Positions 4,812-34,895 of a stretch of DNA of 64,000 bases are shown piece by piece. Both the position numbers and the translations under genes were made by a program. The stretch is from contig JAGRHC010000018.1 of NCBI GenBank assembly GCA_020445145.1, positions 180,691 through 244,690 on the forward strand, given 5' to 3'. Source of the stretch: Alphaproteobacteria bacterium (GTDB taxonomy: Bacteria > Pseudomonadota > Alphaproteobacteria > Micavibrionales > Micavibrionaceae). Each line of letters starts with the position of its first letter. Positions within the stretch are counted from its first letter, which is position 1. Below the pieces are notes generated by a model, which did no database searches, was not told the DNA's origin, and worked only from the letters and a program-made list of their open reading frames with translations.

Positions 4812-5321
4812 TTAGGACCTGCCGGCGGTATCCATCAAGGCAAGGGATAGATGCTCAGCCAGAGCGCCGTCCTCTTGGGACAGAATATGGAAGACCGGAT
4901 AATAGCGCTCGCACTGCGCGAGGGAAATATCAACGAGATCTTCAATCTTTTCGCTATGGGCGTTCGCATCCGCGCCTTTGAACAAGCAGGTCTGGCGGAA
5001 GCTCGGCGTGAAATTCTCGCGGGAAATCTCGAAATGCCCAAGCCACAGAGCCGTGTTAATGTCCATCAAAACCGCACTGGAAATCGCGAGGTTGTCTTTG
5101 CTAAGCTCCAGTTCATACTGGCAGCAATATTGAAGCGCACCCATATTTTCCTGCCAAATGAAAAACAGGCGGTATGCGCAGGATTTTCCGGCAACACGGA
5201 CCACAAGCTGATCGCTATCCATGCGGTCATACGTCCAATTATTACCGCTCAGGATTTCTTCTACACTATCCAGAGGATTGGGCAGATCGTCATAAAATTC
5301 GCTATCGCTTTGTATATCCAT
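4812..5321 (-). CDS. YbjN domain-containing protein
   Basis: A 169-residue cytoplasmic protein with the YbjN fold, related to type III secretion chaperones. Visible features are the acidic N-terminus, the motif GNNWTYDRMDSDQL and the later alternation of strands and helices typical of the family. The biochemical role of YbjN proteins is unsettled; some affect motility and stress tolerance. It lies 17 bases upstream of proC and 48 bases downstream of ubiK, so it is probably cotranscribed with both. Confidence 0.85.
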   Translation of the reverse strand: MDIQSDSEFYDDLPNPLDSVEEILSGNNWTYDRMDSDQLVVRVAGKSCAYRLFFIWQENMGALQYCCQYELELSKDNLAISSAVLMDINTALWLGHFEISRENFTPSFRQTCLFKGADANAHSEKIEDLVDISLAQCERYYPVFHILSQEDGALAEHLSLALMDTAGRS

Positions 5322-8577: not shown

Positions 8578-9513
8578 ATGAAACTGATCTCTGGCAATTC
8601 AAACGCACCGCTCTCGCAAGCAATCTCCTCCTATCTCGACATCCCCCTGACACAATGCAATATCAAGCGATTCTCCGACATGGAGATCTTTGTCGAGGTT
8701 CTGGACAATGTTCGCGGCGCCGATGCCTTCTTCATCCAGTCCACGTCCTATCCGGCCAACGACCATCTGATGGAGCTTTTGATTGCGATTGATGCCCTGA
8801 AACGCGGCTCCGCGCGCAGGATCACAGCCGTCATCCCTTATTTCGGGTATGCCAGACAAGACCGCAAAACCGGTGGCCGCACGCCCATTTCGGCCAAACT
8901 GGTTGCCGACATTATCACCGCAGCCGGCGCCGACCGTGTCCTGACACTGGAACTGCACGCTGGACAAATTCAAGGTTTCTTCAACATCCCCGTCGATAAC
9001 CTGATCGTCGCCCCGGTGTTCGTGCCGCACATTCAGGATAAATTTAACGGCGAGCGTCTCTGCATCGTGTCCCCGGACGTCGGCGGCGTGGTCCGTGCCC
9101 GCGCGCTGGCCAAACGTTTGAACAATGCAGACCTCGCCATCATCGACAAACGCCGTGAAAAAGCAGGCGTTTCCGAAGTTATGAATGTTATCGGCGATGT
9201 AAATGGCAAGGTTTGTCTGCTGGTAGACGACATCGTCGATTCCGGCGGCACGCTTTGTAATGCCGCCGCAGCGTTGATCGAGAAGGGCGCAAAAGAGGTT
9301 CACGCCTACGTCGTTCACGGCGTCCTCTCCGGTGCAGCTATAGAAAAAGTGCAGAACTCCCCGCTCAAAAAACTGGTCATCACCGACTCGATCGTCGCCA
9401 CACCTGAAGTCGCCGCATGCCCGGATATCGAGCAGCTTAGCATCGCCGGCCTGATGGGTGAAGCTGTCCGCCGCACAAGCGAAGAGCGCTCAATCTCTGA
9501 GCTGTTTAAGTAA
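8578..9513 (+). CDS. prs: Ribose-phosphate pyrophosphokinase
   Basis: A 311-residue PRPP synthetase, the normal class I length. It makes PRPP from ribose 5-phosphate and ATP for purine, pyrimidine, histidine and tryptophan synthesis. Visible motifs are the N-terminal [15 protein letters not shown], the flexible-loop and ATP region [11 protein letters not shown], and the PRPP-binding loop [11 protein letters not shown]. The ATG at 8578 follows a GCAAGGA site and gives the family N-terminus. In many related genomes prs is followed directly by rplY; here two unknown paralogues intervene. Confidence 0.97.
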
Positions 9514-9517
9514 GTTT

Positions 9518-9546
9518 TTGACTTTTTATGCGGGCGCGCTTATCAT
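9518..9546 (+). promoter_or_regulatory. Candidate sigma70 promoter of the 9574 gene
   Basis: TTGACT (9518-9523), 17-base spacer, TATCAT (9541-9546), starting 5 bases after the prs stop codon and 28 bases before the next start. It suggests the inserted gene is expressed independently of prs. Confidence 0.6.
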
Positions 9547-9573
9547 TATTCCCATAAAAAATTTGCGGGAAAA

Positions 9574-10359
9574 ATGAATAAGACACCAATAACCACACTC
9601 GAAAAATTCAAGAATGCTGTAATAGAAGTATGTCAGCAGGAAACGGGACTTCTTGAGGACCTCAAGGCGGAAATCGTCGCATATCAAAATAATCCAGACG
9701 ATCAAACTCTGGGGCAAATCCACGCAAAAATTCAGGAAACATTCACCCCGGATCGCTGGATCAGCCAGCATACAAGATTAAATTTTATGAGCCTTGAAGA
9801 GCTGCGCGGTGAAATGTCTCCATCAAACAAGGGCTGGAAGGCAATCCACAGGCTGGATACATTGTTGGAGGCACTCGCAGACAAACAAAACCACATCCAT
9901 GATAAATTTCAACAAACCGGAAACAGCTTTTTTTACATTTTAGGCTTCATCGATGTATTAAGAAATCGTGTGGATGTACAAAGCCTGAAAGCAGATTTGG
10001 CAGAAAAATTTGGACCGGAAAGTGCCGCCGAATTTGAACGGTCTTTTGATGAAACGGAACAGCAGAGGGAACTCGCCAAACAAGCCTTAGGTGAGTTAAA
10101 AAGTATAACCGAGACACCAGAATTTATGGCCGCCCTTAGAGCTTCGCAAGAAAAGTCGCCGAGAAAAGGTCACGGTCTGAGCAGACGCATGCAAATGACC
10201 GGCAAAATAATGGGAGCATTCTTGGCAACAGTTTTCTTTTTAAAAGCAAGCGGATGTAATCCATTTGGCAGCCAGGAACAACCAACATCGCCGGATGTAC
10301 CCTCAGCCACCGAGGAAATCAGCATCGCCAATCCGCCGCCGGAGCCGCCAACGCAATAA
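9574..10359 (+). CDS. Unknown C-terminally anchored protein, paralogue of the 10560 gene
   Basis: A 261-residue protein not recognised in any family. The first 205 residues are charged and helical. Residues 117-157 hold a motif shared with the next gene: a hydrophobic run, VD, then LKADLAEKFG and a short helix. Residues 210-224 form a single hydrophobic segment preceded by basic residues (GLSRRMQMTGK), then C228 and a proline-rich tail of about 30 residues. The likely topology is cytoplasmic body, one C-terminal membrane segment and exported tail. The context before C228 (LKASGC) only loosely resembles a lipobox and is in the wrong place. It has its own promoter and sits inside the prs-rplY interval. 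Confidence 0.75.
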   Translation: MNKTPITTLEKFKNAVIEVCQQETGLLEDLKAEIVAYQNNPDDQTLGQIHAKIQETFTPDRWISQHTRLNFMSLEELRGEMSPSNKGWKAIHRLDTLLEALADKQNHIHDKFQQTGNSFFYILGFIDVLRNRVDVQSLKADLAEKFGPESAAEFERSFDETEQQRELAKQALGELKSITETPEFMAALRASQEKSPRKGHGLSRRMQMTGKIMGAFLATVFFLKASGCNPFGSQEQPTSPDVPSATEEISIANPPPEPPTQ

Positions 10360-10446
10360 AGGCTAAGCCACTATAGATTTGCGGTAATTTATAACTGAGC
10401 AACTTTTCAGCCAAACGAGCCTAAACTTGACGTATCTTTATCAAAG

Positions 10447-10463
10447 ACTGCTACCATAGCAGT
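10447..10463. repeat. Perfect inverted repeat between the two paralogues
   Basis: ACTGCTA-cca-TAGCAGT, a 7-base-pair palindrome with a 3-base loop, 88 bases after the stop of the first gene and 40 bases before the promoter of the second. No T-run follows on the plus strand, so it looks more like an operator or RNA hairpin than a strong terminator. Confidence 0.5.
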
Positions 10464-10502
10464 GAAGAATGCCAGAGGGCTTTGTTTCAAAAATATAGGG
10501 GT

Positions 10503-10532
10503 TTGACAAAGAAAGAGTTTACCTGATATTAT
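10503..10532 (+). promoter_or_regulatory. Strong candidate sigma70 promoter of the 10560 gene
   Basis: A consensus TTGACA (10503-10508), 18-base spacer, TATTAT (10527-10532), followed by AAGGA at 10550-10554 before the ATG at 10560. Confidence 0.65.
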
Positions 10533-10559
10533 TTTACCATAATTTTTATAAGGAAAAAA

Positions 10560-11678
10560 ATGAGTAATACTTCAGACAATTCTCCAAGCGTGCCCAAAAT
10601 AGAAACACTAGCTCAATACATCATTGAGGCGAAAAATATTGTGCCGCCAGAGCCAGTTGGTCGTGAATCTCTTGTCAAGAAACTGGGTATGGAAGAGTCT
10701 GGCGAAGCGGTAAAAACATTTCTGGCTATTTTAAATGACGCGACCAATTTGTGGCCGCATGTAGACAAAAAAAAGCTGGCGGCAGATCTGGCGAAAAGGT
10801 TTGGCAATAATGGAGCGATCGCCATCATGGAGGGGGTCGATAGCATTCAATTAAGGTTTCCCCTAAGGGAAAATGATGATGAGGGACGTCTGGAATCCAT
10901 AGGTAAAAGGGTACGGGTAATACAAAGAGAGGCAGGGATGGTGCTCGTTCGCGAGTGGCATAAGAAGCCTCTTGATGAACTGGGTACCCAGATACAAGAA
11001 CAAGACATCAAAACTTTAGAAGACCTGAAACTGGCAGTAGTCGAAATCGCTAATGAAAGGGTCAAAAAATGTAGCACTCTTTTGGAGCGTTGCAAAGGAC
11101 TAAGCAGAAAAAGCACGGACAAAGAACTTAAGCAATTTGCGAGTGATTGGGGTGAAGTCTTTTTGCCCGGATCCCCAGCAAATTTTATGCAATACAGAAT
11201 TCAGCAGCCTGTTGATAGAGATAGACTTGCAGCCATCATTGTCATTCACAGAGCAAATATTAAAAATCGTAGAGACAAGGTCCATAAGCTATCCAATGAC
11301 CCAAATGAGGCATTTCTATATCTCGCCGAATATAACGATGACTTGAAAGGGCGCATAGACCAAGAGTCGTTCATAGAAGATTTAACACAAAAATTTGGTT
11401 CAGAGACGGCCCAAAATATTATGGAGACAATGAAATATACGAGCGCTACGGCGGCTAGAGAAAAATTTTATCAAGTCGTAGGTGAGCATCAAGCCAGAGG
11501 ACGAAGCAGAATTAAAGCTGGAGTGGTTGCCGCTTTGGGAGCGTTAAGTTTAGCCTTCTGCAACCTCAGTAATAACGGCAAAGAGCCATCAGATAAAAGA
11601 GATCACCCCGATGTGACCGAGAGAGTACCCGCAGGTCAAGTGCCTCCCATAGACCCACCTACAGCCAGTCACGACTAA
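10560..11678 (+). CDS. Unknown C-terminally anchored protein with internal repeat
   Basis: A 372-residue protein of no recognised family. From about residue 150 it aligns with the preceding gene (TLEDLKLAVVEI against TLEKFKNAVIEV). The shared motif occurs twice inside it: residues 50-91 (VDKKKLAADLAKRFG) and 250-290 (IDQESFIEDLTQKFG). Residues 318-333 are a membrane segment preceded by basic residues, followed by C334 and a charged, proline-containing tail of about 38 residues, the same architecture as its neighbour. The body is charged and probably helical. It probably arose by duplication, with extra N-terminal sequence. Function unknown. Confidence 0.75.
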   Translation: MSNTSDNSPSVPKIETLAQYIIEAKNIVPPEPVGRESLVKKLGMEESGEAVKTFLAILNDATNLWPHVDKKKLAADLAKRFGNNGAIAIMEGVDSIQLRFPLRENDDEGRLESIGKRVRVIQREAGMVLVREWHKKPLDELGTQIQEQDIKTLEDLKLAVVEIANERVKKCSTLLERCKGLSRKSTDKELKQFASDWGEVFLPGSPANFMQYRIQQPVDRDRLAAIIVIHRANIKNRRDKVHKLSNDPNEAFLYLAEYNDDLKGRIDQESFIEDLTQKFGSETAQNIMETMKYTSATAAREKFYQVVGEHQARGRSRIKAGVVAALGALSLAFCNLSNNGKEPSDKRDHPDVTERVPAGQVPPIDPPTASHD

Positions 11679-11741
11679 TCATCACCAAATTTTCCTTGCA
11701 AAACCAGAGTCTTTTGCTTATTTTCCGCTATCATTGAAACC

Positions 11742-11768
11742 GGGTCAGGCACCCCTGGAGGCTGACCC
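11742..11768 (+). promoter_or_regulatory. Hairpin in the rplY leader
   Basis: GGGTCAG (11742-11748) and CTGACCC (11762-11768) can pair around a 13-base loop, ending 22 bases before the preferred rplY start. No T-run follows. It could be an r-protein leader structure that controls L25 synthesis, but no named Rfam leader is recognised. Confidence 0.4.
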
Positions 11769-11790
11769 ATAACTTTAAAGGAAAATGGCT

Positions 11791-12441
11791 ATGTCAAAAT
11801 ATGCTTTGAAAGCGGCCAAAAGAGAACGCGCCGGCAAGGGGGTTGCTCGTTCACTGCGCCGCGAGGGACGTACCCCAGCTGTAATTTACGGCGACGGGAA
11901 GGAACCTGTAACAATCTCCCTGAATGAAAACGAAATCAACGTAACGTATAATCGTGGCCACATGCTGACCATGCTGTGCGAACTTGATGTTGACGGCGAT
12001 CAACACCTCGTTCTGGCGCGTGACGTCCAGCTTCACCCGGTCACAGATATTGTGGAACACGTTGACTTCCTGCGCGTTTCTCCGAAAACGAAGATTGCGG
12101 TCATGGTGCCTGTGCACTTCATTAACGAAGACAAATGCCCGGGGATCCATCAAAAAGGGACTCTGAACGTTGTCCGTCACGAAGTTGAACTTCTCTGCAG
12201 CGCGACCAACATTCCCGATCAGATCGAAGTCAACCTCGAAGGCAAACACAACGGTGAACCTGTGAAAATCAGCAGCGCAATTCTGCCTGAAGGCACATCC
12301 CCTGTGATTACCGACCGTGACTTCACAATCGCAACGCTCGTTGCACCGAAAACAGCAGCAGCAATTGAAGCGGAAGAAGCAGCGGAAGCTGCCGAAGACG
12401 CAGCTGAGCCGGAAGCTGAAGCGGAAGAAACGGAAGAATAA
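11791..12441 (+). CDS. rplY: 50S ribosomal protein L25/general stress protein Ctc
   Basis: A 216-residue L25/Ctc protein with the 5S-rRNA-binding domain at the N-terminus (RERAGKGVARSLRREGRTPAVIYG), a C-terminal TL5-type beta domain and a strongly acidic, alanine-rich tail from about residue 188. It binds 5S rRNA in the large subunit. Two ATGs are possible: 11785 is only 2 bases from AAAGGA, while 11791 is 8 bases away and is preferred. It leads the conserved rplY-pth-ychF run. Confidence 0.95.
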   Translation: MSKYALKAAKRERAGKGVARSLRREGRTPAVIYGDGKEPVTISLNENEINVTYNRGHMLTMLCELDVDGDQHLVLARDVQLHPVTDIVEHVDFLRVSPKTKIAVMVPVHFINEDKCPGIHQKGTLNVVRHEVELLCSATNIPDQIEVNLEGKHNGEPVKISSAILPEGTSPVITDRDFTIATLVAPKTAAAIEAEEAAEAAEDAAEPEAEAEETEE

Positions 12442-15755: not shown

Positions 15756-17228
15756 CTAGCGGCCCGCGGGCGCCGCAACGCAAGGTCCGGGATTCGGCAT
15801 CCCCAAAGGAGGGCAGGCAGGCGGTGGCTCCGACCCCGTCTGGCCCGTTGCGCCTTGAGAGTTTGCAACGGCCCGGTCAACGGCGCTCGGTTCACGCGCG
15901 GCTGATCCCGCAAATGAGTTCTGACACGCGCCGCGCGCCGCGTCATTCGCATTGCACGCACCATCATTGATCATTTGATCAGCCGTTGGCGGCGCAAACC
16001 CGGCCGGATCATGGCTCGGACGAGCAGGGGCACATGCTTCACCACCGGCACCGCCCAGCACAACATAGGCATCGCGGTGCTGTGCATATTCTTTTTGATT
16101 CACGCGGTAATAGGCCAGAGGCGACAAACGCTCGGAGTACCCGGAGAAGTAAGTCCCGCCAAACTCTTCCTGAAAGGCCTTGTTTCTAAAATTCTCTATA
16201 ACCGCCGCGTAATAATAATCATTTGAACGGAGATCATCCTCAGTCACACCGACATTATAGATAAGATGGTCATGGCGGGCTTTCATATCCGCATTGTCTT
16301 CAACAGTCGGCTTTCCAAGGCCATCCTCAACCAACGCCAGATCATCAATATGGGGCACGTAATCGCCTCTGACAATCGCCTCGCCGATTTCATGCTTTGA
16401 AATCCCCTTACAGGCGGCTTGCTCAATCATAATCTCGGCGGCAATCCTGCCGACATCTTGACGGCAAAAGGTAGAATTCATAAAGGATTGTTCTGGTGTC
16501 TCACCTTGCTTGACCTGAAAAAAGCCACCAGCAAGCGCTGCGTTAATAATACGCTCCTTTTGTGCATCCGTCGCATCAATCAGCATATCTGCACCGGTTA
16601 AGCTATTATAGTAGCTCGTATTATCAAGCTTTTGGCGAAAAGCATCACTGAAAAAGCGATCCGGATCTTGCGGTGCATTCGGTCCATTCCACGGCGCATC
16701 CGCAGTCCGCGAGAGCGCAAACGCAAATCCACGAGATGTCCCGTCCGGAACATAAGAAAGCGGCAACGCCCCGTCATTCATCAGGGAAATCAGATTGAGA
16801 AGGGCAATTTTATCTGCAAGGCTCTCAACATTCTCCTTTACAACAGGATCTGTCTGTTGTGCCGCATAAGCCTTTACAGCCTTGACATCATCAAGAGGAA
16901 TATCTTGAGGAATATGAAGCTCTTCCGCGCGTTTTTTAACAAGCTTATCAAGGAAGCGAACAGCATCTTCGTTACCAGACATAACCCAGGGGTCAAACTT
17001 GTCGTCAATATCGGCATTCTCCAACTGAACACGCGTCAACGCGGCGCGCAAAGGCTGGGTTGTCTTAATATCGACACGATATGTATTGGTTTTCTCGGCA
17101 GGATCAGCCTCAACACCCAAAACCTTCTGGGCTTCTTCAATGACACGGCGCGCAGCCTCTTCCTGCGTTTCAACAGGCAGAAATTTCTGCTCTTCTGAAC
17201 TCTCTTTGCCTTGAACTGGTTCCGGCAT
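15756..17228 (-). CDS. Unknown 490-residue orphan protein
   Basis: A protein not recognised in any family. There is no signal peptide or membrane segment. Residues 1-390 are mixed helical and acidic with aromatic patches (SYYNSLTGADML, NDYYYAAVIENFRNKAF). The last 95 residues are low-complexity, rich in Ala, Gly, Pro and Cys, with cysteines spaced through the tail (GGEACAPARPS, DGACNAND, RGACQNS, PPPACPP). This tail may be disordered or an export/surface tail. The coding quality is good over its full length, so it is a real gene. It lies between the helicase and ilvE and may be cotranscribed behind ilvE. Confidence 0.75.
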   Translation of the reverse strand: MPEPVQGKESSEEQKFLPVETQEEAARRVIEEAQKVLGVEADPAEKTNTYRVDIKTTQPLRAALTRVQLENADIDDKFDPWVMSGNEDAVRFLDKLVKKRAEELHIPQDIPLDDVKAVKAYAAQQTDPVVKENVESLADKIALLNLISLMNDGALPLSYVPDGTSRGFAFALSRTADAPWNGPNAPQDPDRFFSDAFRQKLDNTSYYNSLTGADMLIDATDAQKERIINAALAGGFFQVKQGETPEQSFMNSTFCRQDVGRIAAEIMIEQAACKGISKHEIGEAIVRGDYVPHIDDLALVEDGLGKPTVEDNADMKARHDHLIYNVGVTEDDLRSNDYYYAAVIENFRNKAFQEEFGGTYFSGYSERLSPLAYYRVNQKEYAQHRDAYVVLGGAGGEACAPARPSHDPAGFAPPTADQMINDGACNANDAARGACQNSFAGSAAREPSAVDRAVANSQGATGQTGSEPPPACPPLGMPNPGPCVAAPAGR

Positions 17229-33710: not shown

Positions 33711-34895
33711 ATGTCATCTCAGGATCCAGTCGTCATTGTTGCAGCAAAAAGAACCGCCATTGGCTCTCTGGGCGGCGCACTATCGTCTGTGTCCGCCGCA
33801 AGACTGGGGGAGATCGTCATCAAGTCTTTACTGGAAAGCGCATCGGTAAAAGCCGATGACGTAAACGAAGTTTTAATGGGGCAGGTGCTAACAGCAGGCT
33901 GCGGTCAAAATCCGGCGCGTCAGGCTGCAATATACGCAGGTATCCCGCAAAGTGCGTCTGCTGCCACAATCAATCAGGTTTGCGGATCAGGGCTCCGCAG
34001 CATCGCATGGGGCGCACAGTCAATTTTGCTCGGTGATGCGGATATTATTATCGCAGGCGGCCAAGAAAATATGAGCCAGTCTCCGCACCTCGTACAAATG
34101 CGCGAAGGCGTTAAATTCGGAGACGTATCACTTAAAGACAGCATGATTATTGACGGTCTTTGGGACAGTTTCAACGATTATCACATGGGCATAACCGCAG
34201 AAAATATTGCAGAAAAATATGATGTATCACGCGGTGATCAGGATCATTTCGCTGCACGCTCTCAGGCACGTGCGCAAGAGGCAATCGCCGCAGGAAAATT
34301 TACCGAGGAAATTGTGCCTGTGTCAGTTCAAAAGCGCAAAGAAACTGTCATCGTAGACAAGGATGAGTTCCCGCGCGCAGGCGTAACGGAGGAGGGGCTA
34401 TCCGCCCTAAGGCCGGCATTCAAAAAGGACGGCTCCGTAACCGCCGGGAATGCATCTGGGCTAAATGATGGCGCAGCGGCTGTGCTTTTGATGCGCGAAA
34501 GCGAAGCACAAAAGCGGGGCCTTGCGCCGATAGCAAAAATATCATCTTGGGCTACGGCAGGCGTTGATCCGGCATTCATGGGAATGGGGCCTGTACCCGC
34601 TTCCAAAATCGCTTTACAAAAGGCAGGCTGGAGCGTTGACGATCTTGACCTTGTCGAGGCAAACGAAGCCTTCGCCGCGCAAGCCTGCGCCGTAGTCAAG
34701 GATGCAGGGTTCAGTCCGGAAAAAACAAATGTCAACGGCGGTGCAATTGCTTTGGGTCACCCCATCGGCGCATCAGGGGCGCGCATACTGGTCACATTGC
34801 TTCATGAAATGAAAAAACGTGACGTTTCGAAAGGATTGGCTACGCTCTGTATTGGTGGTGGCATGGGAATTGCGCTTTGTGTAGAGCGCACTTAA
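33711..34895 (+). CDS. phaA: Acetyl-CoA C-acetyltransferase (beta-ketothiolase)
   Basis: A 394-residue thiolase that condenses two acetyl-CoA into acetoacetyl-CoA. The acyl-accepting Cys is in [17 protein letters not shown] (about residue 89), the active-site His in [18 protein letters not shown] and the second Cys in [11 protein letters not shown]. The start has an AGAGGA site. It stands between phaC and phaB, which supports a biosynthetic role for PHB. Confidence 0.96.

Follow-up and report, generated by a model that had tools for sequence, protein, structure and literature searches.

The window analysed here is a stretch of 64,000 nucleotides of an alphaproteobacterial contig, and positions refer to it throughout. 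Two genes that we call A and B lie between prs and rplY in this window. The features that the argument needs are these, by position, strand and content.

8578-9513, + strand: prs, on the same strand as A and B
9518-9546, + strand: promoter-like site of gene A, TTGACT-17-TATCAT, 10/12 in a consensus scan
9574-10359, + strand: gene A, ATG to TAA, 261 aa, an orphan
10207-10257, + strand: codons 212-228 of gene A, hydrophobic run and conserved Cys, a marginal anchor by hydropathy
10503-10532, + strand: promoter-like site of gene B, TTGACA-18-TATTAT, 11/12 in a consensus scan
10560-11678, + strand: gene B, ATG to TAA, 372 aa, a paralogue of A that is extended at its N-terminus
11517-11561, + strand: codons 320-334 of gene B, hydrophobic segment AGVVAALGALSLAFC, a likely anchor by hydropathy
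11679-11784, + strand: ancestral prs-rplY spacer with the rplY promoter and leader, from comparison with the spacers of 39 relatives
11732-11773, + strand: hairpin in the rplY 5'-leader with the invariant loop core CACCCCTGGAGG, separate from the A/B pair, found by conservation and covariation
11785-12441, + strand: rplY, then pth and ychF

The preliminary description of this locus began at 9518, where the TTGACT hexamer in front of A starts; this promoter-like site lies 5 nt past the prs stop. That description placed two genes between prs and rplY, and both open reading frames are indeed there. The start of prs itself is given as GTG 8530 in a mechanical list of reading frames, and alignment to relatives favours ATG 8578.

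Judged by frame length and codon usage, A and B are true coding genes and not chance open reading frames. The open frames run to 281 aa for A and 383 aa for B, whereas the longest frame in 2000 shuffled versions of the interval has 170 codons. For both genes the annotated frame has the best codon usage of all six. It had also been proposed that each gene has its own promoter, which agrees with what we see: the promoter-like sequences just upstream of A and of B are the two top scorers among the 10 sites returned by the consensus scan, where 4.4±2.3 are expected. The two genes differ from their neighbours in composition, with a GC content of 42-43% (neighbours 50-57%) and a GC3 of 0.41-0.45 (neighbours 0.52-0.66). 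These low values would fit either a recent arrival or fast divergence.

The claim that A and B are paralogues is robust. Their alignment over the length of A, which pairs A 5-260 with B 149-368, scores 139 against 34.9±5.2 for shuffles, whose maximum was 60. The similarity is not confined to one part, since the body and the tail are each significant separately: the bodies alone score 110 against 31±5, and the tails that follow the hydrophobic segment score 51 against 26±5, a value reached by 2 of 2000 shuffles. At the nucleotide level the identity at codon positions 1, 2 and 3 is 0.43, 0.48 and 0.36, where composition alone would give 0.26-0.28. The common C-terminal layout that had been described for the two proteins also holds up in the alignment, in which the hydrophobic segment, a Cys-Asn pair and the proline tail are in register; C228 of A is aligned with C334 of B, and Asn comes next in each.

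Both proteins contain a module of about 45 residues with DL..KFG.E.A near its end; A has one copy and B has two. The additional N-terminal copy of B has modest support, with scores of 54 and 58 against about 30±5, reached by 1/1000 and 0/1000 shuffles. A profile of the module finds the three copies it was built from in the source genome and none further below E = 0.5. Its matches in 240 class genomes cover 18-25 columns at E 0.003-0.009, and we take them to be chance. The likeness between the two genes extends upstream: aligned from their start codons, the regions before A and B score 33 against 11.2±6.3, with 0/2000 shuffles as high. Ordinary promoter and ribosome-site consensus could account for part of this. 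The simplest history is that one gene was duplicated in tandem along with its promoter.

That the genes belong to no recognised family, as first reported, is borne out by the libraries. Neither has a relative in Pfam, NCBIfam, PHROGs, PADLOC or the PDB; scanned against Pfam to E = 10, A matches no family and B has four unrelated weak matches. Membership of an anti-phage defence system has no support: the PADLOC protein models gave 0 families for A and B to E = 10. Searches of phages and plasmids (tblastn) and of viral contigs found no relative, and a limited scan with two degenerate patterns over the genome contigs of 84,980 species found none. Apart from the source genome, no homologue of A or B was found in 94 relatives, 142 order genomes, 385 class genomes or 398 phylum genomes, a set that holds no congener of the source genome. 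Three weak matches that turned up do not survive inspection: one (G015) is to what we take to be a NodT-type lipoprotein signal peptide, one (G004) lies inside an unrelated 402-aa protein, and one (G026) is on the opposite strand of a presumably Fic-like reading frame. Two further genomes, G068 and G080, gave similarly weak matches at E 0.005-0.007. The preliminary description had raised the idea of a two-gene system, which a shared distribution and a conserved locus would support. A conserved system is not supported, as neither gene occurs in any related genome searched. On this distribution the pair is better described as a tandem duplication, restricted to one lineage and located at a permissive site.

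The history of the site can be read from relatives. We compared 39 Micavibrio-like Alphaproteobacteria in which prs and rplY were on one fetched stretch, and the order prs-rplY-pth-ychF is kept in all of them. The spacer between prs and rplY is 90-300 nt in 33/39, so A and B do interrupt an otherwise tight spacing, as had been claimed. In the other six (L047, L063, L065, L068, L077 and L078) the spacer is 480-1900 nt. None of these six inserts matches A or B by tblastn and they appear mutually unrelated. L077 carries what we take to be a sodium/calcium-exchanger-like protein and L078 presumably a peptidase-like protein and a CsbD-like protein; the rest are short ORFs of no known kind. The inserts of L047 and L068 are not paralogue pairs either, by their alignment scores (23 against 27±5 in L047, 36 against 31±5 in L068). 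The six relatives with unrelated inserts mean that the site tolerates insertions. In the window the 106 nt before rplY account for the ancestral spacer in full. The point of entry of A and B was therefore immediately past the prs stop, and the rplY promoter and leader remained intact.

An insertion of this kind invites the explanation that A and B are horizontally transferred cargo of a mobile element, with a function tied to a phage, a plasmid or a defence system. Their GC and GC3 below those of the neighbours are consistent with such an origin, as are the other unrelated inserts in the same interval in 6/39 relatives. However, fast-evolving native genes are also compatible with low GC, the searches of phages, plasmids, viral contigs, PHROGs and PADLOC returned no match, the prs-rplY gap contains no integrase, and there are no convincing flanking direct repeats at the junctions. 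We consider this origin quite unlikely.

In B the C-terminal hydrophobic run is 15 uncharged residues (320-334) with a 15-residue KD maximum of 2.17; in A it is 12 residues (212-223) flanked by K211 and K224, with a maximum of 1.75. Both proteins have basic residues before the run and a net acidic, proline-rich tail after it, of 33-38 residues across the two and 33 aa in A. From hydropathy and charge, B could plausibly have a tail anchor and export its tail, and a membrane segment in A would be marginal. It could be argued instead that both proteins are soluble or peripheral, that the C-terminal stretch forms a helix which is either buried or amphipathic, and that the proline tail is a disordered tail in the cytoplasm. 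The short run of A, broken by K224, and its low KD maximum would suit that explanation, as would the low AF2 confidence over A's C-terminal hydrophobic part. The longer and more hydrophobic run of B does not suit it, nor does the basic-before, acidic-after bias with the aligned Cys-Asn exit that A and B have in common. We regard a soluble or peripheral pair as unlikely, though it deserves to be taken seriously.

The cysteine at the exit of the segment suggests another idea, that this is an internal C-terminal lipoprotein signal and that cleavage before the cysteine frees a lipidated tail peptide. The tail of A does resemble the lipoprotein signal peptide in G015, with 37% identity over 61 aa. 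Against this, a PS51257-style lipobox pattern is absent from both proteins (K224 is at -4 in A and F333 at -1 in B), and the position is C-terminal. Such processing seems to us highly improbable.

Predicted structure adds a little. The AF2 model of A has a mean pLDDT of 71 and is all-helical, with fair confidence to about residue 190; over residues 1-170 the pLDDT is about 65-93, even though two sequences were the whole input. The model of B is poor (pLDDT 40). Foldseek found nothing for the A model at E ≤ 0.001. With VIA-align, A 5-114 superposes on many generic helical bundles with a best Z of 7.8, and the Z values of 7.2 to 1tqg and 6.7 to 3myf are level with those of unrelated bundles. Small four-helix-bundle domains, for instance Hpt domains such as CheA P1, are among the structures on which the predicted fold superposes. 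However, a Z of this size is typical of any helical bundle, and the sequences give a Hpt phosphotransfer domain no support: neither A nor B has a HxxKG-type His motif or a Pfam match. Since the fold search returns generic helical bundles, it points to no particular biochemical activity.

A filter for the same C-terminal layout within the window picked out two reading frames besides A and B: one at 33711-34895, and one that runs antisense to the gene for the DEAD-box helicase. Just downstream of the helicase gene is a separate reading frame of 490 aa (15756-17228, - strand) that has no Pfam match and a C-terminus rich in cysteine, proline and glycine; it is possibly another orphan.

The preliminary description saw no obvious known counterpart for such a pair. 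As far as layout goes this is too strong, because the C-tail anchored proteins ElaB, YqjD and YgaM of E. coli are counterparts (PMC6389858); as far as family goes it stands, because Pfam puts A and B outside that group. A and B are like these proteins in having a charged helical body, a single C-terminal hydrophobic segment and no N-terminal signal. They differ in having no sequence match to them, in being a tandem pair, and in their acidic proline-rich tail and conserved Cys past the segment. They are also much longer: YqjD/ElaB-type proteins have about 100 aa, and A and B are two to four times that length.

The similar layout and the translation-related neighbours make it tempting to see A and B as ribosome tethers of the YqjD/ElaB type, placed beside rplY, pth and ychF for translation control. 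YqjD does bind ribosomes (PMC6389858). However, no Pfam model of that kind matched, and the length is wrong. The neighbourhood carries no functional signal either: relatives have either nothing or unrelated genes at this site, so the adjoining translation genes are no evidence of a role in translation. We think ribosome tethering very unlikely.

We believe the locus is best explained as follows. A and B are lineage-restricted tandem duplicates set between the prs stop and an unchanged rplY promoter and leader. They would be transcribed independently of what the neighbours do, probably from one promoter each. Their basic-then-hydrophobic C-terminal segment would hold them in the inner membrane, a case that is clear for B and weaker for A, with the N-terminal body presumably inside and the tail outside. 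Tethered to the membrane in this way, the helical bodies would serve for binding or as adaptors. They would do so as homo- or hetero-oligomers, which a disulfide at the aligned cysteine may link on the outer face of the membrane. The orphan-duplicate part of this explanation we regard by itself as very likely. The whole chain, from orphan duplicates to membrane-tethered helical binding proteins that may be Cys-linked, we offer tentatively, as a possible reading of the sequence. A more ambitious version makes A and B the founders of a new family, with helical bodies built from repeats, a C-terminal anchor and an exported Cys/Pro tail. Disulfide-linked as a heterodimer in the membrane, they would connect some cytoplasmic partner with the envelope of a Micavibrio-like, possibly predatory lineage; this would be a long shot. 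A and B are like other bacterial ORFan tandem duplicates: they have no detectable homologues and low GC3, and they were inserted into a conserved cluster without disturbing it. Unlike such duplicates, both copies keep an unusual C-terminal layout in common, which argues for a retained function. They are probably an accessory trait of the genus and no part of the ribosome or of PRPP metabolism.

The same comparison of relatives brought out the hairpin in the rplY leader. Its core, CACCCCTGGAGG, is closed by a variable stem and lies 29-71 nt before rplY; the pattern is present in 38/39 relatives and in the window, with sites at 11732-11773 (+ strand) of the window and upstream of rplY in the loci L041-L080 and L150-L184. 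A covariance model, R1, trained on the window sequence together with family members, matches 49/190 class genomes (a single match in 48, two in the other) and 19/249 phylum genomes, of which 13 do not belong to the class. In 34/35 inspected loci rplY is just downstream of the hairpin, and in the 35th the sequence ends after the motif, with prs just upstream. The stem covaries strongly. In an alignment of 38 sequences, almost all from outside the training family, that was fitted to the structure but has no indels, the 7-bp stem is paired in 86.5% of cells. Covariation scores 0.691 there, compared with 0.294±0.026 for shuffles and at most 0.210 with the stem slid. All seven stem pairs have two-sided changes.

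Rfam 15 has no match to this hairpin, and the table of new motifs in a 2020 survey of ribosomal leaders has no entry for L25 in Alphaproteobacteria (PMC7247131). The gammaproteobacterial loci examined lack the pattern before rplY, and by eye the leader shows no plain mimicry of the 5S rRNA of the source genome. In three alphaproteobacterial loci (L090, L092 and L093, about 4910-5000) the leader is apparently longer, with a second GC-rich element containing GGTGGAGAGTA between the hairpin and the Shine-Dalgarno; this element is reminiscent of the GGGAGAGTAG strand of 5S rRNA loop E. The hairpin is probably an uncatalogued ribosomal-protein leader, and the interpretation that suggests itself is that bL25 would control its own synthesis through it. 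A 2024 review restricts the autogenous-control leader of bL25 to species with a short, one-domain bL25 (PMC10931766). Here the hairpin stands before genes for two-domain bL25, both in many Alphaproteobacteria and outside that class.

A and B are an ordinary kind of genomic novelty, genus-specific orphan paralogues in a permissive intergenic site. Much of their usefulness is in their flanks, which place the insertion just past the prs stop and whose comparison exposed the RNA hairpin upstream of rplY. That side result may outweigh the pair itself in importance. The hairpin would make the control of two-domain bL25 genes directly testable.
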